Assembly (NCBI GenBank): GCA_022827945.1
Contig: JAJEIT010000046.1
Location: 1 to 32,868 of the forward strand
Source: Dehalococcoidia bacterium
Lineage (GTDB): Bacteria; Chloroflexota; Dehalococcoidia; Tepidiformales; Tepidiformaceae
DNA: 32,868 nt
Direction of reading: 5' to 3'
The notes under the pieces are model-generated. The model ran no database searches and was not told where the DNA came from. It worked only from the letters and a program-made list of their open reading frames with translations. The translations under genes were made by a program, and so were the position numbers. This document shows, one piece after another, positions 9,232-30,848 of this stretch (the stretch's first letter is position 1; each line of letters opens with the position of its first letter).

Positions 9232-9266
9232 CGACTTGGAGGGCGCCCCGGGAGGCGCCGGTTCTC

Positions 9267-9272
9267 AGCGTA
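9267..9272 (-). promoter_or_regulatory. Putative -10 box (TACGCT) of ctaA
   Basis: On the minus strand GTACGCT ends 35 bases before the ctaA ATG. The same TACGCT stands upstream of the tRNA-Pro gene at 13735-13740. Confidence 0.4.
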
Positions 9273-9303
9273 CGGTGCGATGCCCGGAGGCGCCAGATTC
9301 CGG

Positions 9304-9309
9304 TAGGCT
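9304..9309 (+). promoter_or_regulatory. Putative -10 box (TAGGCT) of a leaderless sirtuin mRNA
   Basis: TAGGCT is followed by exactly six bases and then the ATG at 9316, so transcription would begin at the start codon. There is no ribosome-binding site. The MFS gene at 13786 has the same arrangement. Confidence 0.55.
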
Positions 9310-9315
9310 CGCGCC

Positions 9316-10074: not shown

Positions 10075-10778
10075 CGGCCCGACTCGGGCGCGTCCCGCTG
10101 CTCGCCCCAGCGGTCCCAGTGAACCACTTCTCCCAGCGGCTTCCGTCGCGCCTGTGAGAAGCGCCCCCGCTCCAGGTAGCCGAGCGGGATCAGACCCATG
10201 ACGAACGAGTTCTCCGGAAGCCCGAGCAGGTCCCGGAAGAACGTGCCCTCGTCCAGGGTCCACGTCAGCACGCTGCCGATGCCGAACGCCCGCGCCGCGA
10301 GCATCAGATTCTGCATCGCGCCGTAGATCGATCCGCCCAGCCCGGCTCCCGCGCGCCGCGTGTTGTCATCCATGCGCGCTGCCGTCTGCATGACAGGCGC
10401 GACGATCACGGGCACCTCGGCGTAATACTCGGCCAGGTGCACCACCCCCCGCCGGTTGCGCTGGTCGATCCCGACCTCGCCCTCCGCGACCCCGCCCCGC
10501 GTGATCCGGGCCGTGCCGAGCTCTTCGTCGCTCACCCGTCCGTACCCGTAGGCCGAGAGGAGGCGCTCCGAGTAGACCTCAGCGATCTGCTGCTTGATCG
10601 CCGGGTCGCGGATCACGACCCAGCCCCAGCCCTGCTGGTTGCCGCCGGTCGGGCCGCGGATGGCGGCGTCGAGAATCTGCCAGAGGACGTCCTCCGGAAT
10701 CGGGTCGGGCTTCAGGTAGCGTTGCGCGCGCGTCGTGTGGATCGCATCGAGCACGTCGAGGGGTTCACGGTCCGGCAT
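10071..10778 (-). CDS. Nitroreductase family flavoprotein
   Basis: The 235-residue protein has the FMN-dependent nitroreductase fold: TTRAQRYLKPDPIPEDVLWQIL at the N-terminus (Arg near the FMN phosphate), AIRGPTGGNQQGWGWVVI for the FMN pocket, an inserted middle region, then GGSIYGAMQNLMLAARAFGIGS and a C-terminal GLIPLGYLERGRF. Members reduce nitroaromatics, quinones, flavins or halogenated aromatics with NAD(P)H; the actual substrate is unknown. ATG 10778 is preferred over 10826 because GGGAGG stands 5 bases upstream. A TAGACT box lies at 10811-10816. The stop is shared within the CTAG of the sirtuin stop. Confidence 0.9.
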   Translation of the reverse strand: MPDREPLDVLDAIHTTRAQRYLKPDPIPEDVLWQILDAAIRGPTGGNQQGWGWVVIRDPAIKQQIAEVYSERLLSAYGYGRVSDEELGTARITRGGVAEGEVGIDQRNRRGVVHLAEYYAEVPVIVAPVMQTAARMDDNTRRAGAGLGGSIYGAMQNLMLAARAFGIGSVLTWTLDEGTFFRDLLGLPENSFVMGLIPLGYLERGRFSQARRKPLGEVVHWDRWGEQRDAPESGR

Positions 10779-10810
10779 GGGGCCTCCCGGCACGGCTGGT
10801 CGCCACTCCG

Positions 10811-10845
10811 AGTCTACCTGCCCCAAGCGATCGGGCGCGTATCAT
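10811..10845. promoter_or_regulatory. Divergent -10 boxes between nitroreductase and LLM genes
   Basis: On the minus strand TAGACT (10816-10811) serves the nitroreductase gene. On the plus strand TATCAT (10840-10845) serves the LLM gene at 10878, giving leaders of about 26 nt each with good ribosome-binding sites. No convincing -35 boxes are seen. Confidence 0.4.
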
Positions 10846-10877
10846 CCCGCCGGACGCGCGCGCTCGGGAGGAAGGCG

Positions 10878-11747
10878 ATGAAGATCGGGCTCTACGGCAT
10901 CAATGCAGGCTTGAACTCAGACCGCGAGGCCGTCCTGCGCTACGCACGCACGGCCGAGGCGGCCAACTTCGAGTCGCTCTGGACGGGGGAGCACGTCGTC
11001 GCCATCGACCCCCAGCGCCCGCCCTCCCCCGTCGTCCCCGACACCCCCATCGTCGACACCGTCGCGACGCTCGCGTTCGTCGCCGGCGCCACGGAGCGCA
11101 TCAGGCTCGCGAGCGGCATCCTCCTCCTCCCCCAGCGCAACCCCGTCGTCCTCGCCAAGGAGCTCGCGGGCATCGACGTCCTCTCGGGCGGGCGGCTTAT
11201 CTTCGGCGTGGGCGTCGGCTACGTGAAGGAGGAGTTCGACACCATGAGCGTCCCCTTCGAGGAGCGCGGCCCCCGCACCTCCGAGCACATCGAGGTCATC
11301 CGCACCCTCTGGACATCGGACAAGCCCGAGTTCTCGGGGAGCTTCACCTCCTTCTCCGGCATCCAGTCGTACCCCCACCCCGTGCAGCAACCGCATCCCC
11401 CGATCGTCATCGGCGGCTCCTCCCCGCCCGCCCTCCGCCGCACCATCACGCAGGGCAACGGCTGGTACGGCTTCATGCTCGATGTCGACGGGGCGAGCGC
11501 GGTCATCCAGGCCCTCGAGCAGACCGCCGAGCAGGTCGAGCGCCCGGACGGCCTCGGGCCGCTGGAGATCACCATTACGCCTCGTGGCCGCCTCGACCGC
11601 GAGGCGGTCGAGCGTTTCGCCGAGGCCGGCGTCCACCGCCTGGTCCCCATGCCGCGCGGCCTCATGGTCCCCGCCGACGACCCCGACGCCACCCGCGACG
11701 AGATCATCGCCTCCGTCGAGGCGCTCGCGGAGTCGCTGGGGCTGTAG
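10878..11747 (+). CDS. LLM-class (luciferase-like) flavin/F420-dependent oxidoreductase
   Basis: The 289-residue TIM-barrel protein belongs to the luciferase-like monooxygenase / F420-dependent oxidoreductase superfamily. Family marks are FESLWTGEHVVAI near residue 35, RIRLASGILLLPQRNP at about 76-91, and the GGRLIFGVGVGYVKEEF signature near 107-122. RTLWTSDKPEFSGSF and QQPHPPIVIGGSSPPALRR complete it. The latter block is typical of the F420-binding subgroup, but FMN use cannot be excluded. The ATG has GGGAGGAAGG upstream. The superfamily acts on very diverse substrates, so no specific reaction is proposed. Confidence 0.92.
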   Translation: MKIGLYGINAGLNSDREAVLRYARTAEAANFESLWTGEHVVAIDPQRPPSPVVPDTPIVDTVATLAFVAGATERIRLASGILLLPQRNPVVLAKELAGIDVLSGGRLIFGVGVGYVKEEFDTMSVPFEERGPRTSEHIEVIRTLWTSDKPEFSGSFTSFSGIQSYPHPVQQPHPPIVIGGSSPPALRRTITQGNGWYGFMLDVDGASAVIQALEQTAEQVERPDGLGPLEITITPRGRLDREAVERFAEAGVHRLVPMPRGLMVPADDPDATRDEIIASVEALAESLGL

Positions 11748-16586: not shown

Positions 16587-17468
16587 CTACTCCTCCGCGA
16601 GTGTGGGCTCCTCGAAACCGTAGATCTCCGCCGCGTTTCGCCACCAAAGGCGCTCGCGGTCCGATTCCGACAGCTTCAACTCGTCGTAGATCGCCTCGAA
16701 GCGATCGATGTGCTCGCGAATGTCGTCCATGCCGCAATCCGACCCGAACACCAGCTTCTCGATGCCGATCTCGCCGCCGATCAGATTCAGCTCGACCGCG
16801 TGCCGCTCGATCGTCTCCCCGCCGCTCATGTCGAAGGCGACGTTCGGGCGCCAGCGCGCCACGGACGTGGCGTACTCGTAGTTGCCCTGGTTCCCCAGAT
16901 GCGCGCCGATGATGCGCAGGTCGGGGAAGCGCTGCGCGATCGTGTCCAGGTGCACCGGCGACATGCGATCCGCGGAGACGTCGCGCGTCGGCCAGCGGCC
17001 TCGCATCTCCTGCATACGGCGGTACATCGCCGCCGCCTGTGGGTCCCTCCGGGGATGCGTGATCGAATAGTCAATCCCGCCCCCGATGACGCCCATGTGG
17101 TACAGGATCGGCATCCCCAGCCGCTCGGCCGCCGCGTAGGTAGGCAGGTAGTCGGGCTCGTCGTAGCGGCGCGCCACGCCGATCAGCTTTAGGCCGCGGT
17201 AGCCCATCGCGTGGAGCTCCTCGACCTCGTCGCGGCCGATCACCTCCGGGTCGATCATCGCCACCGGCACGAACAGGTCGGGATACCCCTGCAGGATCTC
17301 GATGCCGCGTTCGTAACCCGGCCCGAAGCGCCCGCCCGTGAGGACGCAGCCCTTCGTGATCCCTGCAGCCGTCGCAACCTCAGCGAGGCGCTCGATCATC
17401 GGAGCCGGGTCTTCGTCCGGCTTCTCCCAGTTGCGCGGGAAGTGGATGTGAACGTCGAAGATCTTCAT
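16587..17468 (-). CDS. Amidohydrolase 2 family metal-dependent hydrolase/decarboxylase
   Basis: The 293-residue TIM-barrel protein belongs to the amidohydrolase-related family that includes ACMSD and gamma-resorcylate decarboxylases. Metal and catalytic residues are visible: H7 and H9 in DVHIH, K94 in GLKLIG, H124 in ILYHMGV, H190 in GAHLGN, and D244 in FGSDCG. Length matches the family. It may hydrolyse or decarboxylate a ring-cleavage or lactone-type intermediate; the substrate is not determinable. ATG 17468 follows a TACACT box (17497-17502) with a leader of about 22 nt and no strong ribosome-binding site. The C-terminal codons GAGGAG also form the ribosome-binding site of the next gene. 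Confidence 0.9.
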   Translation of the reverse strand: MKIFDVHIHFPRNWEKPDEDPAPMIERLAEVATAAGITKGCVLTGGRFGPGYERGIEILQGYPDLFVPVAMIDPEVIGRDEVEELHAMGYRGLKLIGVARRYDEPDYLPTYAAAERLGMPILYHMGVIGGGIDYSITHPRRDPQAAAMYRRMQEMRGRWPTRDVSADRMSPVHLDTIAQRFPDLRIIGAHLGNQGNYEYATSVARWRPNVAFDMSGGETIERHAVELNLIGGEIGIEKLVFGSDCGMDDIREHIDRFEAIYDELKLSESDRERLWWRNAAEIYGFEEPTLAEE

Positions 17469-17535: not shown

Positions 17536-18378
17536 CTACAGCAACCTCTCTGCGAATTCCTCGAGGGCCGGGATGGCGTCGCGGGAGGAACGCCACAGCG
17601 TCACGACGATGCGGTTCACCCCCGCTTCCTCCAGCGCCTCGACTTCCTCCCGCGTCATCGAAGGCGAACCGTTTACCGTCACGTCGAACGGCTCGTCCGC
17701 GCGGCCGTACTGCTCGCGCAGTTCCGTCAGCTTCGCGACGTGCTCGCGGGCGCTCTCGGGGGTGTGGCGAAGGGCGTACCAGCCGTCCCCCAGGCGGGCG
17801 GCGCGGCGCAGGGCCGCGGGCGTCTCGCCCCCCACGAGGATGGGCGGGTGCGGCTTCTGGAAGGGCTTCGGCTCGAACGCGGCGGGGCCGAGATCGTAGT
17901 GCTCGCCGTGGAACTCGGGCTCCTCTTCCGTCCAGAGCGCCCGCAGCACGCCGATGCACTCGTCCATGCGCGCCCCTCGCGTGTGGAAATCGAGCCCGAC
18001 CATGTCGAACTCCTCCTCCAGCCAGCCCGCGCCCACCCCGAAGAGGATGCGCCCCCGGGTCAGATAGTCGATGTCGGCGACGGTCTTCGCCGTCGACACC
18101 GGGTCGCGCAGGGGCAGGATGTAGACCGCCGTGCCGAAGCGGATCGTCGTCGTGTGCGAGGCGATGTACGTGAAGACCGTGAGCCCGTCCATGAACGGCC
18201 AGTGCGGGTCGAGCGGCGCCTGCCCGTCCTCCGCGTAGGGGTAGGTCGAAGGCATGTCCGTCGGGAAGATGAGGTGGTCGGGCCGCCAGAGGGACTCGAA
18301 ACCGAGCTCCTCCGCCTTCTGCGCCGCCGCGATCAGCGCCTCGCCCCGGATGCCGTGGATGACCGTGCCGAACTTCAT
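17536..18378 (-). CDS. LLM-class flavin/F420-dependent oxidoreductase
   Basis: The 280-residue barrel protein carries the luciferase-like signature set. FESLWRPDHLIFPTDMPSTY begins near residue 27, and TTTIRFGTAVYILPLRDPVS is typical of TIGR03619-like F420 enzymes. RGRILFGVGAGWLEEEFDMVG follows, then KPHPPILVGGETPAALRRAA. ATG 18378 has GGGAGG upstream and forms an ATGA overlap with the stop of the Ltp-type gene; the longer open frame upstream is that gene in another frame. It is the last gene of the six-gene acyl-CoA operon, where it could hydroxylate or reduce the CoA-linked or free substrate. It is distinct from the LLM protein at 10878. Confidence 0.92.
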   Translation of the reverse strand: MKFGTVIHGIRGEALIAAAQKAEELGFESLWRPDHLIFPTDMPSTYPYAEDGQAPLDPHWPFMDGLTVFTYIASHTTTIRFGTAVYILPLRDPVSTAKTVADIDYLTRGRILFGVGAGWLEEEFDMVGLDFHTRGARMDECIGVLRALWTEEEPEFHGEHYDLGPAAFEPKPFQKPHPPILVGGETPAALRRAARLGDGWYALRHTPESAREHVAKLTELREQYGRADEPFDVTVNGSPSMTREEVEALEEAGVNRIVVTLWRSSRDAIPALEEFAERLL

Positions 18379-19562
18379 GCCCGCGCCTCCCTGCTGAAGA
18401 TGAGCCCACCGCTGGCGAGCGTCCCCGCGCCCACCGTGGCGATGGTGTGGGCCGCGCCCTCGATCTGGCGCGCGCCCGCCCGCCCGGTGACCTGCAGGAC
18501 CGCCTCGCTGATCTGCGCCATCCCGTGCAGGCGCCCCTCGCCCAGCGAGCAGCCCGACGTGTTCAGTGGCAGCTCGCCGTCGAGCGCCGTCGCTCCGGAG
18601 GCGATGTAGCTCGCCGCCTCCCCCCGCCCCACGAACCCGAGCGCCTCCAGCCACACGTACAGGAAGATGCTGAAGCCGTCGTACAGCATTGCCACGTCGA
18701 TGTCGTCCGGCCCCAGGCCCGCCGAAGCCCAGAGCTTCTCGCCCATCGCCGCCCCGCCCTCCCACATGTTCTCCGAGTCGGTGAAGCCGCCCCGCGTTGG
18801 CCAGGTCGTCTGCGCGTGGCCCGTGATGTAGGCGGGCGGCTGCCGGAGGTCACGCGCCCGCTCGGCGCTCGCCAGCACGACCGCCACGCACCCGTCCACG
18901 GGAATGTCGCAGTCGTAGAGGCAGAACGGGTCCGCCACCATGGGCGCCTCCAGGTAGTCCTCAACGGTCAGGGGCGTGCCGTGCCAGTACGCCTTCGGGT
19001 TGAGCTGCGTGTTTTCGCGGTTCTGCACCACGAACGCCGCCATGTCCTCGCGCGTCGAGCCGTGGTCGTGCATGTACTTCCGCAGGGCGACCGACTGCCA
19101 GGCGGCCGGCATGTTGAACCCGTAGGGCGCGCGAAACTGGTTGCCGCCGTACGCCTTCTCCCGCGAGAAGTCGCTGTAGCGGCCCTTCGGCACGTTCACG
19201 GCTCGCCACACCAGAGCGTACGTGCACGCGCCCGAGGCGACCGCCGCCCCCGCCGCCATGATCGTGTCGGGACAGAGGCCCGGCGTCTGGACGTGCCAGC
19301 GAATGTCGTGCTCCAGCCCCAGCATCTGCACCATGTTGGGGACCGTCACAATGTCGATGCCCTCGAGGTCACCGGTGTTGCCGTAGGCGGCGATGTTGGG
19401 GATCGTGCCCAGCCCGTCGATGTCCTCCACTTTGAGCCCCGCGTCCGCGACTGCGGCCTCCGCCGCCTCGCGGGCGAAGTGCGCCAGTGGTCGCGGCGAG
19501 CGCCGCTCCAGCTTCGAGTACCCGAGCCCCACGATCGCCGACCGTCCAGAGAATTCGTCCAT
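18375..19562 (-). CDS. Ltp-type thiolase-fold protein (lipid-transfer protein / retro-aldolase class)
   Basis: The 395-residue protein has the thiolase fold of the lipid-transfer-protein group. AREAAEAAVADAGLKVEDIDG sets the N-terminal half, and LYDGFSIFLYVWLEALGFVG with NTSGCSLGEGRLHGMAQI marks the C-terminal half (His in RLHG). The usual catalytic Cys in a CxSG motif is not found where expected; the segment reads QTPGLCPDTIMAAG, with C97 about three residues out of register. This fits Ltp-type proteins such as Ltp2, which act as retro-aldolases with a DUF35 partner rather than as classical thiolases. The DUF35 gene lies 2 bases upstream, supporting a complex. The exact CoA-ester substrate is unknown. 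Confidence 0.9.
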   Translation of the reverse strand: MDEFSGRSAIVGLGYSKLERRSPRPLAHFAREAAEAAVADAGLKVEDIDGLGTIPNIAAYGNTGDLEGIDIVTVPNMVQMLGLEHDIRWHVQTPGLCPDTIMAAGAAVASGACTYALVWRAVNVPKGRYSDFSREKAYGGNQFRAPYGFNMPAAWQSVALRKYMHDHGSTREDMAAFVVQNRENTQLNPKAYWHGTPLTVEDYLEAPMVADPFCLYDCDIPVDGCVAVVLASAERARDLRQPPAYITGHAQTTWPTRGGFTDSENMWEGGAAMGEKLWASAGLGPDDIDVAMLYDGFSIFLYVWLEALGFVGRGEAASYIASGATALDGELPLNTSGCSLGEGRLHGMAQISEAVLQVTGRAGARQIEGAAHTIATVGAGTLASGGLIFSREARA

Positions 19563-19564
19563 GC

Positions 19565-19996
19565 TCAGGCCTCCTCGGGCTCGAACTGGGGCAGTGCGAT
19601 GTCGTCCGTCAGCCGCTCGAACGTGACCCGCAGCGGCATCCCGATTTCGACCTCCTCCGGCGTCACGCCTACGACGTTCGCGACCAGCACCAGCCGCTCC
19701 TGCTCGACCAGTTCGATGATGCCGATCACGTACGGCTCGCCCTCGGCGAAGCCGCGCGTGATGTTGTCCCGCACGACCGTGTGCGTGTAGACGCGCGCCC
19801 GGCCGCTCACCTGGCGAAACGACAGTTCCTGCGCCTGACAGTAGGGGCAGACGGCCTCCGGGGGGTGGATGTAGCGCTCGCAGGCTGCGCAGTGCTGGAT
19901 CGCGAGCACGCCCCGGTTCGCCGCTTCCCAGAACGGCGCCGTCAGCTCGTCCGGGACCGGTATGGGCTTCGTGACCGCCGCCTCGTTTGCGCTCAT
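19565..19996 (-). CDS. DUF35 OB-fold protein with rubredoxin-like zinc ribbon
   Basis: The 143-residue protein has an N-terminal helix (TAPFWEAANRGVLAIQHC), a zinc ribbon with C36/C39 and C50/C53, and a C-terminal OB-fold (VYTHTVVRDNITRGF ... YVIGIIELVEQERLVLVANV). DUF35 proteins bind acyl-CoA and partner with thiolase-fold proteins, for instance ChsH2 with Ltp2 in steroid side-chain removal, or in archaeal HMG-CoA assembly. The adjacent Ltp-type gene is the obvious partner. AGGAGG precedes the ATG, which overlaps the CoA-transferase stop by ATGA. Confidence 0.95.
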   Translation of the reverse strand: MSANEAAVTKPIPVPDELTAPFWEAANRGVLAIQHCAACERYIHPPEAVCPYCQAQELSFRQVSGRARVYTHTVVRDNITRGFAEGEPYVIGIIELVEQERLVLVANVVGVTPEEVEIGMPLRVTFERLTDDIALPQFEPEEA

Positions 19997-21171
19997 GCCT
20001 GGTCCTCCTGCTGGCGGACGGCATCACCGTGCTCGTCGAGGTGGGGCGCCCGCCGCCGCGGTCGCACCTCCGAGTTCTGCGCCACGAAGGCGCTCCCCGC
20101 GTAGCGCAAGGCGCCGTCCGGCTCGCCGTGGTCCAGCTCGATCCAGAAGTCGCGCGCCGCCAGGTGGGGGTCGTCGAGCAGGTCTTTGGGATAGAGGATG
20201 GAGCTGAAGATGAGCGCCCGCGCCTGCGCCCCATGGAAGATCTCGTCCGCCGTCTTCGTCGCCACGAACCTGCCGATCACCTCCGAGATGTGGTCCGCCT
20301 CCTCGCGGAAGATCTCCGGCACGAAGTACTTCGGGTCGGTCAGATCCTCGGCCATTCCGTGCTCGTCGAGCCACGAGACCAGCCCTTCCCAGGCGCGCGG
20401 ACTGACGTTCACGAGTTGCGCGTTGATGTAGCGGCCGTCCGCCGCCCGGTGCTGCCACGCGGGTGTCGGCGCGATGCTCGCGTGGCGCCCCGTCCGTCGC
20501 GTCACCACTTTCCCGGTGTAGTCGAACTGGGGCAGGGCGTTCTCCGTCATGCCCGCGCAGGCGTCGTGGACGGAGAGGTCGATGAACGTGCCCTTCCCCG
20601 CCTGCAGCGCCGTCAGCGCCGCGATGAAGGCCCAGCTCCCTGCCATGTGTCCGGCCTGGTTCCCCTGCCCGTTGACCGGCGGGCTCGCGGGCATGTCGTC
20701 GTACCCGTTCATCATCAGCTGCCCGCCGAGCGCCTGGTGGACGAGGTCGCTGCCGAGCCATGAGGCCATCGGCCCTTCCTGCCCGAACGGCGTCAGCGCG
20801 ACGTGGACAAGCCGGTCGTTCGCCTCCTCGATGGCCTCGCGTGTCACCCCCAGCCCCTCCAGGCCGCCCGGTTCGCCGCCGTCGAGCAGTACGTCCGCCG
20901 CCGCCAGCAGCCGCAGGAACGCCTCGCGGCCCTCTTCGGTGTGCAGGTCGAGGACCGTGCTCTCCTTGTCCGTGTTGTAGTGCCAGAAGTGCAGGCTCGA
21001 CTCGCCGTCCCGACGCTCCCGAAACCACGGCGCGTAGCCCCGCGTCTCCGCCCCGCCCGGCGGCTCGACCAGCACCACCCGTGCCCCCGCCTGCGCGAAC
21101 AGCTTGCCGCACCACTCCGTGCGCGGCCCCGCCAGTTCCACCACCGTCAGGTGCTCGAGCGTCCGGCTCAT
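19993..21171 (-). CDS. Family III CoA-transferase (CaiB/BaiF), catalytic Asp present
   Basis: The 392-residue protein moves CoA between carboxylic acids through an enzyme-bound anhydride. The start LTVVELAGPRTEWCGKLFAQAGARVV is the CoA-binding Rossmann-type segment. HFWHYNTDKESTVLDL and LVHVALTPFGQEGP follow. The nucleophile motif reads TFIDLSVHDAC, with D203 at the position of Asp169 in formyl-CoA transferase. The C-terminal tail is Arg/His rich. It follows a second family III protein with ATGA overlap; the two may form a heteromer as SmtA/SmtB do in Chloroflexus. It would activate the acid feeding the Ltp/DUF35 step. Confidence 0.93.
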   Translation of the reverse strand: MSRTLEHLTVVELAGPRTEWCGKLFAQAGARVVLVEPPGGAETRGYAPWFRERRDGESSLHFWHYNTDKESTVLDLHTEEGREAFLRLLAAADVLLDGGEPGGLEGLGVTREAIEEANDRLVHVALTPFGQEGPMASWLGSDLVHQALGGQLMMNGYDDMPASPPVNGQGNQAGHMAGSWAFIAALTALQAGKGTFIDLSVHDACAGMTENALPQFDYTGKVVTRRTGRHASIAPTPAWQHRAADGRYINAQLVNVSPRAWEGLVSWLDEHGMAEDLTDPKYFVPEIFREEADHISEVIGRFVATKTADEIFHGAQARALIFSSILYPKDLLDDPHLAARDFWIELDHGEPDGALRYAGSAFVAQNSEVRPRRRAPHLDEHGDAVRQQEDQA

Positions 21172-22427
21172 ACCGCCTCGGCCTCCTCCAGCGTGATTGC
21201 GTCGTCGATGACTGCGTCGGCCTTCAGTTGCTCAAGGCGCTCTTCCGGGTAACCCAGCAGGTCGCGCAGCACATCGCGCGTGTCCGCTCCCAGCCACGGC
21301 GAGGGGCTGCTGACCCCCACGTCGAAGCCGCTCATCGTCACGGGGACGTCCTCGTATCGCTTCTCCCCGAGCACCGGGTCGTCGAGCGTCGTGTAGAGCC
21401 CGCGGAAGGCGAGCTGCGGGTCGCGATGCACCTTGTCCTCGACCGTCTGCGCGACCCCGGCCGGCACGCCTGCCTCCTGCAGGGCCACCATCGTCTCGCG
21501 CGCGTCCCGCTCCCGCGTCCACGCCCCGATACGCGCGTCGATCTCGTCCTCGTGCGCGACCCTTCCCTCCAGCGTCGCAAGGTCCGGCCGCGCCGCAAGG
21601 TCGTCCGCGCCGATGACCTGGCACAGGGCCGCCCACTCGCTCGGCTCCCGCACCGAGATCGCGAGCCACGAGTCCTCGCCCCGGCAGCGGTAGGCGTTAT
21701 TCGGGCAGAAGTTGCCGTACAGGTCGCGGTTCCCCTTCGGGCGCACCTGCGCGCCGTTCAGGGAGACGTCCAGCAGCATCGGCCCGAGGAGCGCGCAGCC
21801 GTGCTGGCTCTGCCCTGCGTCGAAGAACTCGCCTTCGCCCGTCGCCCGCCGCCGTTCGAGGCCCATCAGGATGGCGGCTGCGTTCATCACCGCGCCCATG
21901 TGGTCCATGTAGGAGAAGCCCCAGCCGGCTGGCTCGCGGTCGGGCAGGCCCGAGGTTGCGGTCAGGCCGCTGTACGCCTGCGCCGTCGGACCCACTGATC
22001 GGTAGCCCGCGTACGGACCCGTCTGCCCGAATCCCGAGGCCGAGAGGTAGATGATGTCGGGCCGGATCGCGCGCACGGCCTCGTAGTCCAGCCCCCAGCG
22101 CTTCATGACGCCTGGCGAGAAGCTCTCGGCGAGCACGTCGCAGTGCGGGATCAGCTCCCGCGCGATGTCCTTCCCCGCGTCCGTTGACATGTCGATGGCG
22201 ACGCTCTTCTTGCCCACGTTGACCTGCGCGAAGAACCCGCCCCGGTTCATCCCCGGTCTGCCGCCGGCGTGTGGCCCCGAGAGCCGCAGAAAGTCGAGGG
22301 CCGGCGGGTGCGGCCACTCGATGCGCAGGATCTCCGCGCCCAGCGTCGCGAGGATGCGGGTCGACCCCGCCCCCGCCAGGTGGCGCGTGAAGTCGAGCAC
22401 GCGGATGCCTTCGAGCGGGCCTGGCAT
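21168..22427 (-). CDS. Family III CoA-transferase paralog, nucleophile position occupied by Gln
   Basis: The 419-residue protein opens with MPGPLEGIRVLDFTRHLAGA and ILATLGAEILRIE, a textbook CaiB/BaiF start. NVGKKSVAIDMSTDAGKDIA, LAESFSPGVMKRWGLDYEAV and IIYLSASGFGQTGPYAGYRS also fit. At the nucleophile motif it reads FFDAGQSQHG (201-210). By hand alignment Q208 stands where Asp169 of formyl-CoA transferase should be, so it may be a non-catalytic or altered partner of the 19993-21171 protein. ATG 22427 is chosen because the family start matches there; the much longer open frame translates the kinase gene. The stop overlaps the next gene by ATGA. Confidence 0.92.
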   Translation of the reverse strand: MPGPLEGIRVLDFTRHLAGAGSTRILATLGAEILRIEWPHPPALDFLRLSGPHAGGRPGMNRGGFFAQVNVGKKSVAIDMSTDAGKDIARELIPHCDVLAESFSPGVMKRWGLDYEAVRAIRPDIIYLSASGFGQTGPYAGYRSVGPTAQAYSGLTATSGLPDREPAGWGFSYMDHMGAVMNAAAILMGLERRRATGEGEFFDAGQSQHGCALLGPMLLDVSLNGAQVRPKGNRDLYGNFCPNNAYRCRGEDSWLAISVREPSEWAALCQVIGADDLAARPDLATLEGRVAHEDEIDARIGAWTRERDARETMVALQEAGVPAGVAQTVEDKVHRDPQLAFRGLYTTLDDPVLGEKRYEDVPVTMSGFDVGVSSPSPWLGADTRDVLRDLLGYPEERLEQLKADAVIDDAITLEEAEAV

Positions 22428-22432
22428 GGCGC

Positions 22433-23428
22433 CTACCCCCCGTCGAGCAGTTCGAGGGCGCGCCGCATCAGGAACGGCGCCGAGAGGGCGGTGTCCTCCC
22501 ACGACTCGTCCGGGCGCTTCCCCGTCCGGTGAAGGTACAGGTTGAAGCCGCTGATGATGGCGAACTTGTAGGCGCCGAGGGCGCGGTACCAGGCGATGTC
22601 GCCCGGGTCGCTCCCGTAGGTGTCCACGTATTCGGCGATGAGATCGTCGGGGCTGGGCAGCTTCAGCCGCAGCCCGTGCTTCCACGCTGCCGCGTCCGCG
22701 AACGTGATTACCCAGCCGATGTCGTTGAGCGTCGCCCCCACGCCCCACAGCTCCCAGTCGATGACCGCCTGCAGCGTCCCGTCGAAGCTGTAGAGGACGT
22801 TCGACCACTGGAAGTCCCCGTGGAAGATGCCCGCCCGCGGCGTCTGCGGCAGCCGTTCCAGCAGCTTCTCCCGGACCGCCGGCCCCAGCGCCACCAGATC
22901 CATGTCGCCCGAGCGTTCGTAGAAGCGGTCCCAGCGCGTCACGTCCGGTTCCAGCTCGAGCGGCGGGCCGTCGTCGGGCACGTACTCCCGCCAGTCGAGC
23001 AAGTGCAGCGACGCCAGCGCGCGCATCGCCTGGGCCGCGACGGGACGCATCTGCTCGTACGACAGCGACTGCCCCCACTCGTTCCGCAGCACGTCGCCCT
23101 CGAACTTGTTCACGATGAAGTAGGGCGACCCGAACCAGCGCTCGTCCTCGCCCGACCAGATTACGCTCGCCACCGGTACGTCCGTGTCCCGGATCGCGTC
23201 GACCACGCGCGCCTGCCGGATCACGTCGGCGGTGCCGACCCGCCGCACGTTGGGGGGCGGCACGCGCAGCACGTACGACTTCGACTCGCCCTTCGACGTG
23301 GCCGTGAACCCGAAGGAGAAGCCGGCGTGTCCCGCCATCGTCTCGACATCGGAGACGACCACGTCGGGGTCGCCGAGGTGCTCGTGGCAGAACGGCATGA
23401 GGCGTTCGGAGAGCTCAGCGAGGTCCAT
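22433..23428 (-). CDS. APH-fold kinase of the ACAD10/ACAD11 type
   Basis: The 331-residue protein has the aminoglycoside-phosphotransferase fold. YVLRVPPPNV (52-61) is the nucleotide-binding strand as found in ACAD10/11-like kinases. IFHGDFQWSNVL (201-212) carries the catalytic D205 and N210, and VIDWELWGVG (222-231) carries the Mg-binding D224. Kinases of this type, such as the ACAD11 domain and Pseudomonas LvaA, phosphorylate hydroxyacyl-CoA so that the hydroxyl can be eliminated. Leading an operon of CoA-transferases and Ltp/DUF35, a hydroxyacyl-CoA kinase is more likely than antibiotic resistance. ATG 23428 has GGGAGG upstream and a TATCAT box at 23453-23458. Confidence 0.9.
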   Translation of the reverse strand: MDLAELSERLMPFCHEHLGDPDVVVSDVETMAGHAGFSFGFTATSKGESKSYVLRVPPPNVRRVGTADVIRQARVVDAIRDTDVPVASVIWSGEDERWFGSPYFIVNKFEGDVLRNEWGQSLSYEQMRPVAAQAMRALASLHLLDWREYVPDDGPPLELEPDVTRWDRFYERSGDMDLVALGPAVREKLLERLPQTPRAGIFHGDFQWSNVLYSFDGTLQAVIDWELWGVGATLNDIGWVITFADAAAWKHGLRLKLPSPDDLIAEYVDTYGSDPGDIAWYRALGAYKFAIISGFNLYLHRTGKRPDESWEDTALSAPFLMRRALELLDGG

Positions 23429-23479: not shown

Positions 23480-24694
23480 CTACCCCATCGCCTGGGCGTG
23501 CTCCAGCACGGCCTCCCAGGGCGTGCGCTGCTCGATGAGGGGGCGGTACGAGGAGAGCTGCTGCGGCATGTTGAACGTCAGGCCGCCCACGATGATCCCG
23601 TTCCGCTGATAGCCGGCCACGAACTCAAGGCTCTCCAGCGAGCCGTGCAGCACCTCGACCTTGTCGTCGGCCCTGGGGTGGCCCAGCGACTGGATACTCG
23701 CGTCGTACTGGTCCGACCAGACGTACGGCACCGAGGCGAACGGTCGCGCCTCGCCCGGCTCGGCGAGCAGGTTGCGCGCCACCTGGCGGCTCTGGTGGAT
23801 CACGTTCGTCCAGTGCTCGACCCGCATCTCCTCCTCGAAGACGGGGTTGTACCAGCGGCACACATCCCCGATGGCGTAAACGCCGGGCGCCGCCGCCAGG
23901 GTGGCGTCGCAGACGACGCCGTCGCGCAGCTCCAGCCCCGACCCCTCCAGCCAGCCCGTTTCCGGCACGACCCCGATGCCGACCACGACCAGGTCCGCCT
24001 CGACCGTCGAGCCGTCGGCGAGCAAGAGCCGCTCGACGCGCTCGCCGCCCTCGAAACCGGACACGAGCGTGTCGCAGCGCACGTCGACGCCGTGGCTCCG
24101 GTGCATCGCCGCGCAGGCCTCCCCAACCTCCACCCCTGCCGCCTGCGCCAGCGGCGCCGGCAGCGCCTCGATGAGCGTGACCTCCAGCCCGGCGCCGCGG
24201 GCCACGGCCGCTACCTCCGCCCCGATGAACCCCGCTCCCACCACCGCCACCCTCGGCCCGTTCGCGAGCTCGGCGCGGATTCGCATCGAGTCGTCGATCG
24301 TGCGGAGCGTGTGGATGCCGGCCAGGTTGGGCGTGTTCGGGAGTGTTCGCGGCGTTGCGCCCGTCGCGATGATGAGCGAATCGAATCCGACGCGCTCGCC
24401 GTCGCTCAGCGCGACCTCGCGCGCCTCCGGGTCGAGTCCCTCGGCGCGCGCACCGAGCCGCAGGTCAAGCCCAAGCTCGTCGACCTTGTCGGGCGGGTCC
24501 AGGAGGGTGCGTTCGGGACCCCACTCGCCTGCCAGCACCTGCTTCGAAAGGGGTGGGCGGTCGTAGGGGTAGTGGGGCTCGGCGCCGATGAGGGTGATCG
24601 TCCCCTCGAACTTGCCCCGCCCGCGCAGCGCCTGCGCGGTGCGAAGGCCGCCCAGGGAGGCGCCCACGATGGCGATTCGGTTGGGGTGAGGCAT
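23480..24694 (-). CDS. NAD(P)H:ferredoxin/rubredoxin reductase-like FAD protein
   Basis: The 404-residue flavoprotein matches the reductases of ring-hydroxylating dioxygenase and P450 chains. RIAIVGASLGGLRTAQALRG (6-25) binds FAD, PYDRPPLSKQVL follows, and a second Rossmann motif (PRVAVVGAGFIGAEVAAVA) binds NAD(P)H. IGDVCRWYNPVF and VEHWTNVIHQSRQVARNLL are typical of the FAD-binding C-terminal part. It would pass electrons from NAD(P)H to a ferredoxin. No ferredoxin gene is adjacent; the P450 at 1852 is a conceivable end user. It begins at ATG 24694, six bases after a GAGAAT box, so it seems leaderless. Confidence 0.92.
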   Translation of the reverse strand: MPHPNRIAIVGASLGGLRTAQALRGRGKFEGTITLIGAEPHYPYDRPPLSKQVLAGEWGPERTLLDPPDKVDELGLDLRLGARAEGLDPEAREVALSDGERVGFDSLIIATGATPRTLPNTPNLAGIHTLRTIDDSMRIRAELANGPRVAVVGAGFIGAEVAAVARGAGLEVTLIEALPAPLAQAAGVEVGEACAAMHRSHGVDVRCDTLVSGFEGGERVERLLLADGSTVEADLVVVGIGVVPETGWLEGSGLELRDGVVCDATLAAAPGVYAIGDVCRWYNPVFEEEMRVEHWTNVIHQSRQVARNLLAEPGEARPFASVPYVWSDQYDASIQSLGHPRADDKVEVLHGSLESLEFVAGYQRNGIIVGGLTFNMPQQLSSYRPLIEQRTPWEAVLEHAQAMG

Positions 24695-24699
24695 CGGGC

Positions 24700-24729
24700 G
24701 ATTCTCAGAATCACCGGCGGGACCGTCAA
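24700..24729 (-). promoter_or_regulatory. Leaderless promoter with overlapping 13-base palindrome
   Basis: On the minus strand TTGACG (24729-24724), a 17-base spacer and GAGAAT (24706-24701) are followed by six bases and the flavoprotein ATG. GATTCTCAGAATC (24700-24712) is a perfect palindrome lying over the -10 box, a good operator candidate. Confidence 0.6.
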
Positions 24730-24734
24730 CTCCG

Positions 24735-24789
24735 TATGCTGGCGTCCGCTGCGTCCAGCCCCCAGAATTAATCGAACGTCTAATAGTCT
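24735..24789 (+). promoter_or_regulatory. Putative -10 boxes of the DinB-like gene
   Basis: TATGCT (24735-24740) and TAGTCT (24784-24789) both fit the TANNCT form upstream of the ATG at 24809. The surrounding 24763-24790 stretch is the most AT-rich in the window. CAGGGG at 24795-24800 is the ribosome-binding site. Confidence 0.35.
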
Positions 24790-24808
24790 CGTGTCAGGGG
24801 ATTCGTAG

Positions 24809-25294
24809 ATGGCGACTCGTGAAGCAATTGTCCAGGCAATCCGGAACGCCGACGCCCGCGGCGAGGCCCTGCGCGGCCGTATCATCGCGAGCCCCGAGGC
24901 CCCTCTCGCCGAGGGCGACTGGAACGTCCGCGATACCCTCAGCCACCTCGCCGCCCGCGCCAATCCCCTCCCCCTCATCGAGATGGTGACCGCCATGGCG
25001 GAGTCCGGCGCCGAGCCGCCGCCCGCCGACGAGGGCGAGGCGATGAACGCCCAGCAGATCGCCGAACGCGCCGGCATGTCCGCTGCCGAAATCCTCGACG
25101 AGATGCACGCCGCCTACGAAGAGGCGGTCACCGGCATCGACCGCCTCGACGACGAGACGCTGGCGCGGCCCGTCAAGCTCCCCGTCATGCCCAACGAGAT
25201 CCAGATGTCGGACCTCGTTCTGATGTCGATGACCATGCACGTCGAGGCCCACCTCGGCGAGATCGAGGGAGCGCTCGAAGCAGCCGGCGCCTGA
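24809..25294 (+). CDS. DinB / maleylpyruvate-isomerase-N-like four-helix protein
   Basis: The 161-residue protein is a probable DinB-superfamily four-helix bundle, which includes mycothiol-dependent enzymes and metal-dependent hydrolases. The diagnostic GDWNVRDTLSHLAA places H46, and the C-terminal helix SMTMHVEAHLGEIEG supplies H144 and H148, the expected metal-binding triad. It may act with a low-molecular-weight thiol in detoxification; the substrate is unknown. It ends one base before the stop of the convergent kinase gene (TGA-C-TCA). Confidence 0.8.
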   Translation: MATREAIVQAIRNADARGEALRGRIIASPEAPLAEGDWNVRDTLSHLAARANPLPLIEMVTAMAESGAEPPPADEGEAMNAQQIAERAGMSAAEILDEMHAAYEEAVTGIDRLDDETLARPVKLPVMPNEIQMSDLVLMSMTMHVEAHLGEIEGALEAAGA

Positions 25295-25295
25295 C

Positions 25296-26399
25296 TCAGT
25301 TCGGCAGGGTCGAGACGGCGTCCAGGTCCGCGATCGCCGTGAAGCAGCGCCGCGAGACCTCGGTGGCCAGCTCGAGGTGGCGCTCGCTGTCCCCGGCCAG
25401 CCCCCCGCCCATCCCGATCGGGTAGACCGCGCACCAGAGGGTCGCCAGCCGGTAGTCCTCGAAGCAGTCGTCAAACGAGTAGTCCCCGACGCCCGCTGCC
25501 ACGAGCGTGTCGTGGTAGTGACGCACGAGCTCGCGCTCGGTCGCCCGGCGCTGCTCCACGTCGAGGCTCTGGCTGGCGAAGTAGGCGATGTCGTACGGAC
25601 CGCGCCCGCGCGCCATCAGCTGGAAGTCGATGACGGTGATGGGGTCACCCTCGCGATCGGGAAAGAACATGTTGTCGAGCCGGTAGTCGCCATGGATGAC
25701 GGTGATCGGGGGCGTCGCGAAGCGCTTGAAGACCCAGTCCATCTGCGCCCACGTCCGCTCCACCGCCGAGATCAGGTCGGGCGTGAGCATATGCCCGAAG
25801 TTCTGCCGGTACACCGGCCAGAAGCCCTGCAGCGTCGCCGGCGCCATCGCCCACACGGGGCCGTCCGTCTTCGGAATCCAGGCCAGATCGTCCGTGTCCG
25901 CCTTGCCCCACCAGGTCGCGTGCAGTCCTGCCGACTGCTCGACGATCTTCAGGGCCTCAGCGTGCGGGGGCGAAACCATCTGGTCCCCGATCCGGAGCTT
26001 CCCCTGCAGGTCCTCGAGCATCGTCACGCCGTCCCCCGCCGCGGAGTCATGGGCGGTATAGAACGCGCGGACGGTTGGCATCGCGGTCAGCGAGGGTTGC
26101 AGGTCCTGAAAGAAGCGCGCCTCGGTCACATAGATGCCGTACTGGCGCGCGAACGCGCGGTTCATCTCCGCGCCCGCCGCGAACTTCGCGATCAGCGTCG
26201 CCGGAGCGCCTTCCCGCGGCTGGTCGTAGGTCAGCGACAGCCGCACAAGCGACCCGAGGAAGCCGAACTCCTCGCCCATCGGGTTCGCCTCGACCGCGAC
26301 GATCCGCTCGTCCTGGATCGCTCCGGTTGAACGCAGGGCGGCAGTCAGCCAGTCCGGGGTGAAGTCCTCCGCCGAGAGGGGGATGGGCAGGTCACTCAT
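25296..26399 (-). CDS. Ecdysteroid-kinase-like (EcKL) phosphotransferase, copy 1
   Basis: The 367-residue kinase-fold protein resembles the EcKinase/DUF1679 group and bacterial APH-like phosphotransferases. ATLIAKFAAG supplies the ATP Lys (K72). The catalytic loop is VIHGDYRLDNMFF (H236, D238, N243), and VIDFQLMARGRGPYD (D258) is the Mg-binding motif. DYSFDDCFEDYRLATLWC closes the helical lobe. Substrates of bacterial members are largely unknown and could be alcohol groups of lipids or sterol-like compounds. GGAGCG precedes the ATG. It is a tandem paralog of the gene at 26451-27551, probably in one transcript (51-base gap). Confidence 0.87.
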   Translation of the reverse strand: MSDLPIPLSAEDFTPDWLTAALRSTGAIQDERIVAVEANPMGEEFGFLGSLVRLSLTYDQPREGAPATLIAKFAAGAEMNRAFARQYGIYVTEARFFQDLQPSLTAMPTVRAFYTAHDSAAGDGVTMLEDLQGKLRIGDQMVSPPHAEALKIVEQSAGLHATWWGKADTDDLAWIPKTDGPVWAMAPATLQGFWPVYRQNFGHMLTPDLISAVERTWAQMDWVFKRFATPPITVIHGDYRLDNMFFPDREGDPITVIDFQLMARGRGPYDIAYFASQSLDVEQRRATERELVRHYHDTLVAAGVGDYSFDDCFEDYRLATLWCAVYPIGMGGGLAGDSERHLELATEVSRRCFTAIADLDAVSTLPN

Positions 26400-26450: not shown

Positions 26451-27551
26451 TTAGCTCGGGAGCAGTGAAGCCGCGTCCAGGTCCAGGATCGTGTTGAACG
26501 AGCGCTTCGAGACCTCGGCCGCGATCTCCACGGCGCGCTCGTTGTTGGCCATGCCGCCGCCCATGGCGACTGGATACATCACGCACCAGAGCGCAGCCGT
26601 GCGGTAGTCCTCGAAGCAGTCGTCGAAGGAGTAGTCACGCACGCCCCCGGCCACTAGGCCGTCGTGGTAGCGGCGCACCAGCGACTGCTCGGCCTCGCGC
26701 CGCAGCTCCACGTCGATGCTCTGGCTCATGAAATAGGCAACGTCGTAGGGGCCGCGTCCGCGCGACATCAGCTGCCAGTCGATGATCGTGATGGGGTCGC
26801 CCTCGCGCTCCGGGAAGAACATGTTGTCCAGCCGGTAGTCGCCGTGGACGAGCGTCATCGGTCCCCGGCTGAGCTGCTGACCCAGCCAGATGAGCCCATC
26901 CCAGGTCCGCTCGATGATCTCCGCCATGCCCGGGAGCAGGAGGTGGGAGGACAGCTCCTGGTAGGTGGGCCAGAGGCTGGGGAGCGTCTGCGCCGTCATC
27001 GCCCAGACCGGCCCGTCGAAAGCGGGCACCCACGCGATGGTCTCCTCGTCCGCCCGGTCCCACCAGGTCGCGTGCAGGTCGGCGATCTGGGTCATGAGCT
27101 GCTCCGCCTCCTTCAGCGAGGCGCCGGCAAGCTGGTCGCCCACCCGGAGCTTCCCGTCGAGGTCCTCGAGCAGGATCACGCCGTTGCCCGTGTCCGGCTT
27201 GATGTCGACGTAGTAGGCCTCGGGCGTCGGCATGGCCGTGATGGTCCGTTTGATCTCGTTGAAGAAGCGAGCTTCCCGTTCGTACACCTGGTACTGGAGC
27301 GCGAGCTCCCGGTTCATCTCCACGAGCGCGGGAAACTTCGCCACAACCGTGGCGGGCGCCCCCGCGCGTGGCCGGTCGTAAGTGACCGCAAGCCGCGCCA
27401 GCGACCCGAGGAATCCCGCTCCCTCGCCCACCGGGGTCGTCTCGATGGCCGTCACGCGCTCGTCCTGGAGCGTCCCGCTGGAGCGCAGGGCATCGGTCAG
27501 CCAGTCCGGCGTGAAGTCCTCGGCGGTCATCGGAATTGGCAGATCGGTCAT
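26451..27551 (-). CDS. Ecdysteroid-kinase-like (EcKL) phosphotransferase, copy 2
   Basis: The 366-residue protein is collinear with copy 1. The first 30 residues differ at seven positions, and all active-site residues keep the same numbers: K72 in VVAKFPA, H236/D238/N243 in LVHGDYRLDNMFF, D258 in IIDWQLMSRGRGPYD. The strong divergence elsewhere (for example 110-125 and 190-235, the likely acceptor-binding lobe) suggests the copies recognise different substrates. GGAGGGG precedes the ATG. It is the first gene of the pair; a TAGCAT box lies at 27572-27577. Confidence 0.87.
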   Translation of the reverse strand: MTDLPIPMTAEDFTPDWLTDALRSSGTLQDERVTAIETTPVGEGAGFLGSLARLAVTYDRPRAGAPATVVAKFPALVEMNRELALQYQVYEREARFFNEIKRTITAMPTPEAYYVDIKPDTGNGVILLEDLDGKLRVGDQLAGASLKEAEQLMTQIADLHATWWDRADEETIAWVPAFDGPVWAMTAQTLPSLWPTYQELSSHLLLPGMAEIIERTWDGLIWLGQQLSRGPMTLVHGDYRLDNMFFPEREGDPITIIDWQLMSRGRGPYDVAYFMSQSIDVELRREAEQSLVRRYHDGLVAGGVRDYSFDDCFEDYRTAALWCVMYPVAMGGGMANNERAVEIAAEVSKRSFNTILDLDAASLLPS

Positions 27552-27571
27552 CGGGTCCCCTCCAGCCCGGC

Positions 27572-27633
27572 ATGCTAGGACGCCCCCACCTTGCGGGCCA
27601 CGCCTTGCCTTCCCTCCGCGGACCTCGTATCCC
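27572..27633. promoter_or_regulatory. Divergent promoters between EcKL and HpcH/HpaI genes
   Basis: On the minus strand TAGCAT (27577-27572) fits the kinase gene. On the plus strand TTGCCT (27605-27610), 17 bases and TATCCC (27628-27633) fit the aldolase gene, with a leader of about 22 nt that includes GGGAGG. Confidence 0.4.
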
Positions 27634-27661
27634 TATGCGACCACCAACCGGGAGGCTGCGG

Positions 27662-28489
27662 ATGAACGGCGCAGAGCTGAAGGAGAAGACCCGCGCCGGA
27701 GGCATCGTCTATGGCACGATGCTCTCCGTCGCGCGCAACCCCCGCTGGGCCACGACCATCGCCGGCCTCGGGCTCGACTACGTCATCATCGACAGCGAGC
27801 ACGCCCCCCGCGGCCGCAGCGAGATCGCCGACCTCCTCGCCGGACTCACGAGCGTCGACGTCGTCCCCATCGTGCGTGTCCCCATCCCCAGTTCGCACTA
27901 CATAACCATGGCCCTGGACGCAGGCGCCCAGGGCATCCTCGCCCCCTACTGCGAGACCCTCGACGAGGTCCACGAGGTCGTGGGCGCCACCAAGTGGCGG
28001 CCCCTCAAGGGCGAGCTCGTCCGCCGCGTCGTCGAGCAGGGTGAGTTCCCCAGCGATGCCTCCCGCGAGTACCTCGAGCGGCGCAACCGCAACAGCGTCT
28101 GCATCGTCGGTATCGAGAGCGTGCCCGCCATGGAGGCCCTCGCCGACATCGTCGCGATCGATGGCGTCGACGCGATCTTCGTCGGCCCGAATGACCTCAG
28201 TATCTCGCTCGGCGTTCCCGACCAGTACGACCACCCCGACTACGAGGCCGCCCTGCGCACCATCATCGCCACCTGCCGGGCGGCGAATGTGCCGGTGCTG
28301 ATCCACCACCAGACGCCGGACCTGTCGGCCAAGTGGCTCCGCGAGGGCGCCCGCTTCGTGCTGCACTGCACCGAGACGCGCGCCGTGCACAACGCCTTCC
28401 GCCAGGAGTTCGGCGCCATCCGCGCCGTGGGCGAGGAGATCGGCGGCGGCGATACCGCCGATGTCGGAGAGTCGGAGGAGACGATCTGA
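27662..28489 (+). CDS. HpcH/HpaI aldolase / citrate-lyase beta-like protein
   Basis: The 275-residue TIM-barrel protein is a class II metal-dependent pyruvate or acetyl-type aldolase. IIDSEHAPRGRSEIADLL (E46, H47), PIVRVPIPSSHYI (R72), the metal ligands E152 in VGIESVPAME and D178 in FVGPNDLSISLG are conserved. It would cleave a 4-hydroxy-2-oxo acid or a malyl-type compound to pyruvate or a related fragment plus an aldehyde. ATG 27662 follows GGGAGG; the longer frame runs back over the divergent promoter. The acidic C-terminal tail (GGGDTADVGESEETI) is an extension beyond the usual family end. Confidence 0.93.
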   Translation: MNGAELKEKTRAGGIVYGTMLSVARNPRWATTIAGLGLDYVIIDSEHAPRGRSEIADLLAGLTSVDVVPIVRVPIPSSHYITMALDAGAQGILAPYCETLDEVHEVVGATKWRPLKGELVRRVVEQGEFPSDASREYLERRNRNSVCIVGIESVPAMEALADIVAIDGVDAIFVGPNDLSISLGVPDQYDHPDYEAALRTIIATCRAANVPVLIHHQTPDLSAKWLREGARFVLHCTETRAVHNAFRQEFGAIRAVGEEIGGGDTADVGESEETI

Positions 28490-28557: not shown

Positions 28558-29424
28558 ATGCCTGAATACCAGACCGTCCTCTACGAGAACCTGACGCCCG
28601 AGATCGTGCGCGTCCGCATGAACCGCCCCGAGGCCCGCAATGCCCAGGACCTGCGGCTCACGCGCGACCTGAACGACGCCTTCGACCACGCCAACCAGGA
28701 CGACCAGGTGAAGGTCATCATCCTCAGCGGCGAGGGTCCCCACTTCAACTCCGGCCACGACATGCGCGGCGGCACCGGGCTCGGCTTCAACGATGTCCGC
28801 CCCGTCGGCACGTGGGCCAACTTCGACCTGGAAGGCGCTGAGGGCGCGATGGCCAAGGAGGAGGAGATCTACCTCCAGATGTGCCGCCGCTGGCGCAACC
28901 TGCCCAAGCCGATGATCGCCGAAGTGCACGGCAAGACCATCGCCGGCGGCCTCATGCTCGCCTGGGTCTGCGACATCATCATCGCCTCCGAAGACGCCGA
29001 GTTCCGCGACCTCGTCGTGGGCTGGGGCATCCCCGGCGTCGAGTACTTCGCGCACCCGTGGGAGTTCGGCCACCGGCTCGCCCGCCAGATGCTCTACACC
29101 GGCGACTGGGTGAGCGCGCAGCGCGCCTACGAGGCGGGCATGGTGAACGAGGTCGTGCCCCGCGAGGAGCTGAGCGAGTACGTCGAGAACCTTGCGCGCA
29201 AGATCGCGGAGAAGCCGTCCTTCGGTCTGAAGATTACGAAGGAAGCGGTGAACCAGACGCAGGATGCGCAGGGTCTGTGGACGGCTCAGCAGGCCGTGTT
29301 CATCATGCACACGCTCGCCCACACCCACTGGCGCGAGGTCAGCGGCGCCGGCATCTACCAGGGCGAGGGCGCGGCCCCGAGGCCCGGCGGCGGCGCCCGC
29401 AGGGAAGCCTCTGCGGCCAACTGA
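28558..29424 (+). CDS. Crotonase-superfamily protein (enoyl-CoA hydratase/isomerase-like)
   Basis: The 288-residue protein has the crotonase fold: RVRMNRPEARNAQDLRL (18-34), the oxyanion-hole segment HFNSGHDMRGG (62-72), VHGKTIAGGLMLAWVCDII (123-141) and AEFRDLVVGWGIPGV (147-161). By hand alignment the two glutamates used by classical hydratases (Glu144 and Glu164 of rat crotonase) are Met133 and a non-Glu residue near D151-L152. It thus should not be a standard hydratase; isomerase, hydrolase, decarboxylase or dehalogenase-type chemistry is possible. The strong TATACT promoter and CGGAGGG site suggest good expression. The last 15-20 residues (GGGARREASAAN) are a low-complexity tail. Confidence 0.9.
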   Translation: MPEYQTVLYENLTPEIVRVRMNRPEARNAQDLRLTRDLNDAFDHANQDDQVKVIILSGEGPHFNSGHDMRGGTGLGFNDVRPVGTWANFDLEGAEGAMAKEEEIYLQMCRRWRNLPKPMIAEVHGKTIAGGLMLAWVCDIIIASEDAEFRDLVVGWGIPGVEYFAHPWEFGHRLARQMLYTGDWVSAQRAYEAGMVNEVVPREELSEYVENLARKIAEKPSFGLKITKEAVNQTQDAQGLWTAQQAVFIMHTLAHTHWREVSGAGIYQGEGAAPRPGGGARREASAAN

Positions 29425-30730: not shown

Positions 30731-30759
30731 CGTGGTAGTGCCGGATGCGTTCTACCACG
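30731..30759. promoter_or_regulatory. Inverted repeat in the SDR/carboxylase divergent promoter region
   Basis: CGTGGTAG (30731-30738) and CTACCACG (30752-30759) are perfect 8-base arms separated by 13 bases. The position, 17-45 bases upstream of the SDR start, fits an operator. Confidence 0.5.
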
Positions 30760-30798
30760 TACGCCGTCGCGGGGCGATTCCGGGGGCGGCGTGCGGCG

Positions 30799-30837
30799 TA
30801 CACTGCGCGAGGGTCGAACGCCCTGAAAGAGCGTTCG
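30799..30837 (+). promoter_or_regulatory. -10 box and leader hairpin/operator of the carboxylase gene
   Basis: TACACT (30799-30804) is a -10 box. CGAACGC (30815-30821) and GCGTTCG (30831-30837) are perfect 7-base arms around CCTGAAAGA. They lie between the predicted start site and the ribosome-binding site GGGAGGTG (30838-30845), so they could form an mRNA hairpin or a TetR-like operator. Confidence 0.5.
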
Positions 30838-30848
30838 GGGAGGTGACG

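Follow-up and report, generated by a model that had tools for sequence, protein, structure and literature searches.

Do a kinase, two CoA-transferases, a DUF35 protein, a thiolase-fold protein and an oxidoreductase that lie in a row in a Dehalococcoidia genome belong to one unit and to one pathway? The six genes occupy positions 17536 to 23428 of contig JAJEIT010000046.1 (assembly GCA_022827945.1), within the analyzed stretch of 32,868 nucleotides that we call the window. An earlier note on this DNA had read them as one unit that activates a carboxylic acid, phosphorylates or removes a hydroxyl group and cleaves a side chain. Our analysis slightly favors a genus-specific catabolic operon in which two older units have been joined. 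One is a core of the class III CoA-transferases CAI1 and CAI2, the DUF35 protein D35 and the thiolase-fold protein LTP, together with an LLM oxidoreductase (LLM); the other is formed by a ferredoxin reductase and the kinase KIN.

All six genes were confirmed on the minus strand, in the place where they had been read. In the direction of transcription, they are KIN (22433-23428), an APH-superfamily kinase (Pfam APH, 81 bits); CAI1 (21168-22427) and CAI2 (19993-21171), both matching Pfam CoA_transf_3; D35 (19565-19996), a ChsH2-type DUF35 protein with a Cys4 zinc ribbon and an OB fold (Pfam zf-ChsH2 and OB_ChsH2_C); LTP (18375-19562), an Ltp2-like protein (Pfam Thiolase_C_1); and LLM (17536-18378). 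Four ATGA overlaps had been claimed, but only three were found, at CAI1/CAI2, CAI2/D35 and LTP/LLM; five congeners have the identical three. KIN and CAI1 are separated by 5 bp, and D35 and LTP by 2 bp. The earlier reading is thus partly confirmed. The order of the six genes recurs in the genus more than chance would allow, and the unit probably extends beyond these six genes. A FAD/NAD-type ferredoxin reductase (23480-24694, minus strand; HcaD/AndAa-like, Pfam Pyr_redox_2 and Reductase_C) precedes KIN by 51 bp and is its probable first gene. This reductase adjoins KIN in every genus member that has the kinase locus, including the most diverged one, G035. Since a DinB/MDMPI gene (24809-25294, plus strand) diverges from the reductase across a gap of 114 bp (24695-24808), which is likely to be the promoter region, the unit is suggested to start at the reductase. 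A promoter and terminator scan gave a site count similar to that of shuffled sequence. A minus-strand open reading frame at 25474-24794, between the upstream kinase gene EcK2 and the reductase, was ruled out as a gene, with substitutions falling at the wobble positions of the plus-strand frame 24809-25294. At the other end, an Amidohydro_2 family hydrolase (16587-17468, minus strand; Pfam Amidohydro_2) follows LLM after 67 bp. Its position in the order is also kept in the congeners, and it is perhaps the last gene of the unit.

The best PDB matches of CAI1 and CAI2 were two different chains of benzylsuccinate CoA-transferase, 9fn0_B for CAI1 (206 bits) and 9fn0_A for CAI2 (187 bits). This supports the proposed activation of a carboxylic acid. 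In the alignment, Asp175 of CAI1 stands in the catalytic column together with the Asp of 9fn0_B, and the column is occupied by Gly in CAI2 and by Tyr in 9fn0_A. The Asp is missing in CAI2 and in the CAI2 orthologs. The pair thus has dissimilar subunits with a single bearer of the catalytic Asp, as in BbsEF; judging from the alignment made here, the 9fn0_A chain would likewise be the Asp-less one. The genome contains 49 CoA_transf_3 matches, many of which are tandem genes or share a single reading frame as fusions. Besides those of the window, class III CoA-transferase loci (L220-L236) were located on contigs C2, C9, C15, C26, C37, C38, C47, C49, C54, C55, C57, C58, C73 and C92, and in the fused enzymes the Asp column was read in one domain only. 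Among the separate pairs, the Asp was detected in one member only in L220, L221, L222, L225 and L226, and in both members in L223 and L231. Thus, paired CaiB genes are an ordinary arrangement in this genome.

For the second pair, the best PDB match was the Ltp2-ChsH2(DUF35) steroid side-chain aldolase 6ok1 (LTP to 6ok1_A, 198 bits; D35 to 6ok1_B, 77 bits), in support of the side-chain cleavage that had been proposed. LTP shares with Ltp2 the thiolase fold, the separate DUF35 partner encoded in the adjacent gene, which has the Cys4 zinc ribbon, and the first Tyr of the YDxF motif. In Ltp2, Tyr294 of YDHF is the base, His296 forms the oxyanion hole and Tyr344 is the general acid (PMC12329534). 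LTP has Tyr294 (in YDGF), but Gly296 and Arg344 (in GRLHG) replace the other two residues, and no MaoC domain is present here. The bile acid aldolase Sal-Shy is also a thiolase-fold/DUF35 complex and retains the first Tyr only; Sal employs Tyr302 together with Cys304, and its residue 352 is Gln (PMC12329534). In contrast to the YDCY motif of Sal, LTP possesses Gly at the position of Cys304 and Arg344 at that of Gln352, and the DUF35 protein is of the Cys4 and not the Cys3His type. YDG and the Arg were kept in all 22 homologs examined and are invariant columns in a 12-sequence alignment, and both YDG and GRxHG are invariant in the LTP lineage (homologs L097-L113). Outside the genus, no conserved cysteine was found in three surveyed active-site stretches of the LTP homologs. 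As far as these residues tell, LTP would represent a third active-site type, neither Ltp2 nor Sal. It is probably an aldolase, and thiolysis is unlikely. LTP-D35 as a BbsAB thiolase was rejected on the Ltp2 match, together with the scores against the NCBIfam models of BbsA (22.8 of 250 bits) and BbsB (89.7 of 750 bits), which are far under the cut-offs; LTP matched BbsB itself with 90 bits.

LLM scored 260.1 bits against NCBIfam TIGR03619, the F420-dependent LLM model, above the cut-off of 166.9. Because this model was passed and an F420 ligase is encoded in the genome, the use of F420 by LLM is plausible. The ferredoxin reductase scored 268 bits against NCBIfam HcaD, which is under the model cut-off. 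Of the 23 Rieske matches of the genome, none lies in this window; the reductase may serve a Rieske oxygenase encoded elsewhere in the genome. A second luciferase-like monooxygenase (10437-11747, plus strand) and a cytochrome P450 (1777-3171, plus strand) are also encoded in the window.

KIN possesses the active-site motifs HGDFQWSN and IDWE, which are conserved across its orthologs. An APH fold with HGDxxxxN and DWE motifs, as in the ACAD10/11 (LvaA) kinases, was recognized. Its PDB sequence matches were 3dxp (68 bits) and ACAD11 (51 bits). The fold model was closest to 3dxp (Z 19.1), the 25-hydroxysteroid kinase of Sterolibacterium denitrificans (Z 18.7 over 310 residues) and Rv3168 (Z 17.8). 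The steroid kinase, the second-best fold match although only about 21% identical to KIN, acts in a pathway of side-chain degradation, where it phosphorylates a tertiary side-chain hydroxyl before a separate, unidentified lyase performs the elimination (PMC8449060).

KIN orthologs (46-59% identity) are widespread in the family and also occur in a few other families. Among 26 loci outside the genus, 16 have the KIN gene starting immediately after that of an acyl-CoA dehydrogenase. This dehydrogenase matches ACAD11 best in the PDB (303 bits) and has the HHCMR motif; the HCMR region is reported to be required for ACAD11 activity (PMC12440821). No acyl-CoA dehydrogenase with this region was found in the window. 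The ortholog in the same genome (79% identity) lies on contig C57, beside another kinase, KIN2 (the pair is at 8515-9555 and 9571-10785 of locus L064). KIN2 scored 165 bits against ACAD11 versus the 51 bits of KIN, so that KIN is not the closest ACAD11 relative in its genome, and KIN2 was preferred over KIN as the ACAD11 kinase ortholog there. The C57 dehydrogenase is paired with another kinase than in the sister genera, as if the partner kinases had been swapped. In another family (locus L211 of G092, contig C96), homologs of the dehydrogenase, KIN2 and KIN are consecutive.

Since the orthologs adjoin the dehydrogenase in those 16 loci and the C57 dehydrogenase is accompanied by KIN2, KIN is a divergent ACAD11-kinase relative that usually accompanies an ACAD11-type dehydrogenase but has been parted from it in this genus. 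The ACAD10/11-type assignment made in the earlier note is supported by this context only; by sequence, where the relation is distant, it is weakened. Like the ACAD10, ACAD11 and LvaA kinases, KIN is of the APH type and has sister-genus orthologs behind an ACAD11-type dehydrogenase. It differs from them in belonging to a divergent subfamily, in the lack of the dehydrogenase in the window and in the presence of a truer ACAD11-type kinase on contig C57. Upstream of the unit, two EcKL (ecdysteroid-kinase-like) kinases lie in tandem (25296-26399 and 26451-27551, minus strand), giving a total of three APH/EcKL kinases in 5.2 kb.

The source genome comprises 2.85 Mb in 99 contigs, of which the window is number 94. 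The named contigs of its nearest relatives are from Dehalococcoidia or Chloroflexi metagenome-assembled genomes, and in our reading of the isolate names these relatives are mostly sponge-derived. Conservation of the gene order, which had been named as a check, was confirmed in 7 of 9 genus members (6 of the 8 others), counting one with a contig break inside LTP; however, the six-gene order is limited to this genus. The conserved arrangement mostly spans from the two upstream EcKL kinases to an exonuclease III gene, and in one further congener the upstream part is displaced by about 1 kb. G028 has neither KIN nor an LTP ortholog. Because the entire neighborhood is conserved among close relatives, the order alone is no proof of a functional link. 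The ratio of nonsynonymous to synonymous substitution rates (dN/dS) ranged from 0.05 to 0.17 across the unit, apart from DUF35 with 0.25-0.36. These low values indicate purifying selection, and thus all genes of the unit are working.

A six-gene unit conserved throughout the order was rejected, the arrangement being confined to one genus. The locus is composite and consists of two units with separate histories. In another genus (G011; L097 13132-17214), D35, LTP, CAI1 and CAI2 were found in this order with 50-65% identity, and LLM (62%) is on the opposite strand. No kinase was found at this module in the 20 kb examined. A LysR regulator follows the module, and LLM there adjoins a molybdopterin-binding hydroxylase subunit. 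In more distant Chloroflexota, the order is CAI2-CAI1-D35-LTP or D35-LTP-CAI2-CAI1. Around LTP homologs in named genomes, 75 loci were scanned with the motifs EGRLHGM and LYDGF as seeds, a scan that is uninformative on the frequency of other motifs: DUF35 was detected within 4 kb in 64 of the 75 loci, the CAI1 and CAI2 pair in 7, and KIN in none. The core of CAI1, CAI2, D35 and LTP resembles a widely distributed set of enzymes for the activation and cleavage of an organic acid.

How might the parts work together? From the observed gene content and order, the subunit types, the conserved active-site residues and the separate histories of the two units, we infer the reactions, the substrate and the joint pathway as follows. 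CAI1 and CAI2 would form one heteromeric CoA-transferase with the catalytic Asp on CAI1 only, and would activate the acid using an acyl-CoA such as succinyl-CoA. The unit contains neither a hydratase gene nor an acyl-CoA dehydrogenase gene, so that the enzymes which supply the beta-hydroxyacyl-CoA and carry out the elimination would have to be encoded elsewhere. D35-LTP would perform a retro-aldol cleavage of the beta-hydroxyacyl-CoA with Tyr294 as the base, producing a ketone or aldehyde and a short acyl-CoA. LLM may act as an F420- or flavin-dependent oxidoreductase in a step before or after the cleavage. KIN would phosphorylate an extra hydroxyl that blocks the pathway, and elimination of the phosphate would follow; the likely eliminating lyase is the ACAD11-type dehydrogenase of contig C57. 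The substrate would likely be a branched, terpenoid- or sterol-derived, or alicyclic hydroxy acid. That KIN and the LTP module share a single, undescribed pathway, with activation by the heteromeric CoA-transferase, phosphorylation and elimination, and cleavage by a Tyr294/Gly296/Arg344 aldolase, is a tentative proposal to which we assign a rather low probability.

Several observations weigh against the joined operon and the pathway proposed for it. The missing hydratase and dehydrogenase genes are one of them. LTP has neither the His296 nor the Tyr344 of Ltp2, so that aldolase activity is not assured. The fold model of KIN, with a mean predicted local distance difference test score (pLDDT) of 75, is moderate evidence and is weakest at residues 200-234, around the catalytic loop. 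The link between KIN and the core exists in a single genus, and the two were found together in no locus examined outside it. G035 lacks the CAI/LTP module; there, unrelated genes in convergent orientation come after EcK1, the reductase and KIN. The last two observations would be expected if the two units were mere neighbors, co-transcribed through an accidental insertion and belonging to different pathways. The many CoA-transferases and Ltp paralogs of the genome also raise the chance of such an adjacency. However, the junction between the units is only 3-5 bp, the order is constant in all congeners holding the core, and both units are under comparable purifying selection; we regard a merely accidental neighborhood as possible but rather doubtful.

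The core might instead be a bbs-like beta-oxidation module, in which the acid that the CoA-transferase activates is a succinate-type dicarboxylate and succinyl-CoA is released by LTP-D35 as a BbsAB-like thiolase. The bbs operon of toluene degraders pairs exactly these two heteromeric enzymes (PMC10818641), and the BbsEF chains are the best matches of CAI1 and CAI2. However, LTP is far closer to Ltp2 than to BbsB (198 versus 90 bits), the NCBIfam scores for BbsA and BbsB are those given above, and Gly296 replaces the Cys that Sal shares with SCP-2 thiolases, with no conserved cysteine in the three surveyed stretches. This possibility is thus improbable. Less probable still is that KIN is an antibiotic- or small-molecule-modifying phosphotransferase of the APH/Mph type, apart from acyl-CoA metabolism. 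It belongs to Pfam APH and matches the NCBIfam models of APH(3') and Mph(F), but these matches (30.9 of 205 and 20.8 of 650 bits) are far under the cut-offs. Moreover, its best PDB matches are acyl-CoA-dehydrogenase-linked kinases and a steroid kinase, and its orthologs adjoin an ACAD11-type dehydrogenase. The genus-specific operon joined from two units remains the reading that we prefer.

Beyond the EcKL kinases, the plus strand of the window encodes an HpcH/HpaI-type aldolase (27536-28489), an enoyl-CoA hydratase (28558-29424) and a carboxyltransferase (30732-32441). Homologs of the carboxyltransferase (48-49% identity) were found 3-6 kb from D35-LTP in loci L133, L135, L136, L138, L140 and L147, mostly of Candidatus Binatia. 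An extra class III CoA-transferase (32452-32868, plus strand) is truncated by the end of the window and contig.

In the literature searched, no published account of this six-gene set was found, which is no proof of absence. The earlier note knew of no described pathway with these genes, which holds, as far as found, for all six together. However, the toluene bbs operon, which carries BbsEF and BbsAB together, already combines a class III CoA-transferase pair with one of DUF35 and a thiolase (PMC10818641); it is the closest operon precedent and was not named in the earlier note. The likeness lies in the dissimilar CoA-transferase subunits, one with the Asp, and in the DUF35/thiolase-fold pair. 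In contrast to bbs, LTP is nearer to Ltp2 than to BbsB and is without the conserved thiolase cysteines, BbsCD, BbsG and BbsH are absent here, a kinase and LLM are added, and the identity to the BbsEF chains is about 33%. What is new is the combination. Its parts are known, and single ones of them also occur in the Ltp2, Sal, ACAD10/11, LvaA and 25-hydroxysteroid kinase systems.

SAR202 and sponge-associated Chloroflexota have expanded CaiB and flavin-oxidoreductase families whose use is unknown (PMC5395668, PMC6306507). For the expanded CaiB families, the present locus is a concrete unit, in which a pair with and without the catalytic Asp is coupled to a thiolase-fold/DUF35 enzyme whose active site is conserved but uncharacterized. 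Should LTP be an aldolase, it would add another way of cleaving C-C bonds with the thiolase fold. If KIN feeds LTP, the hydroxyl phosphorylation employed by ACAD11 and the 25-hydroxysteroid kinase would extend to a new pathway.

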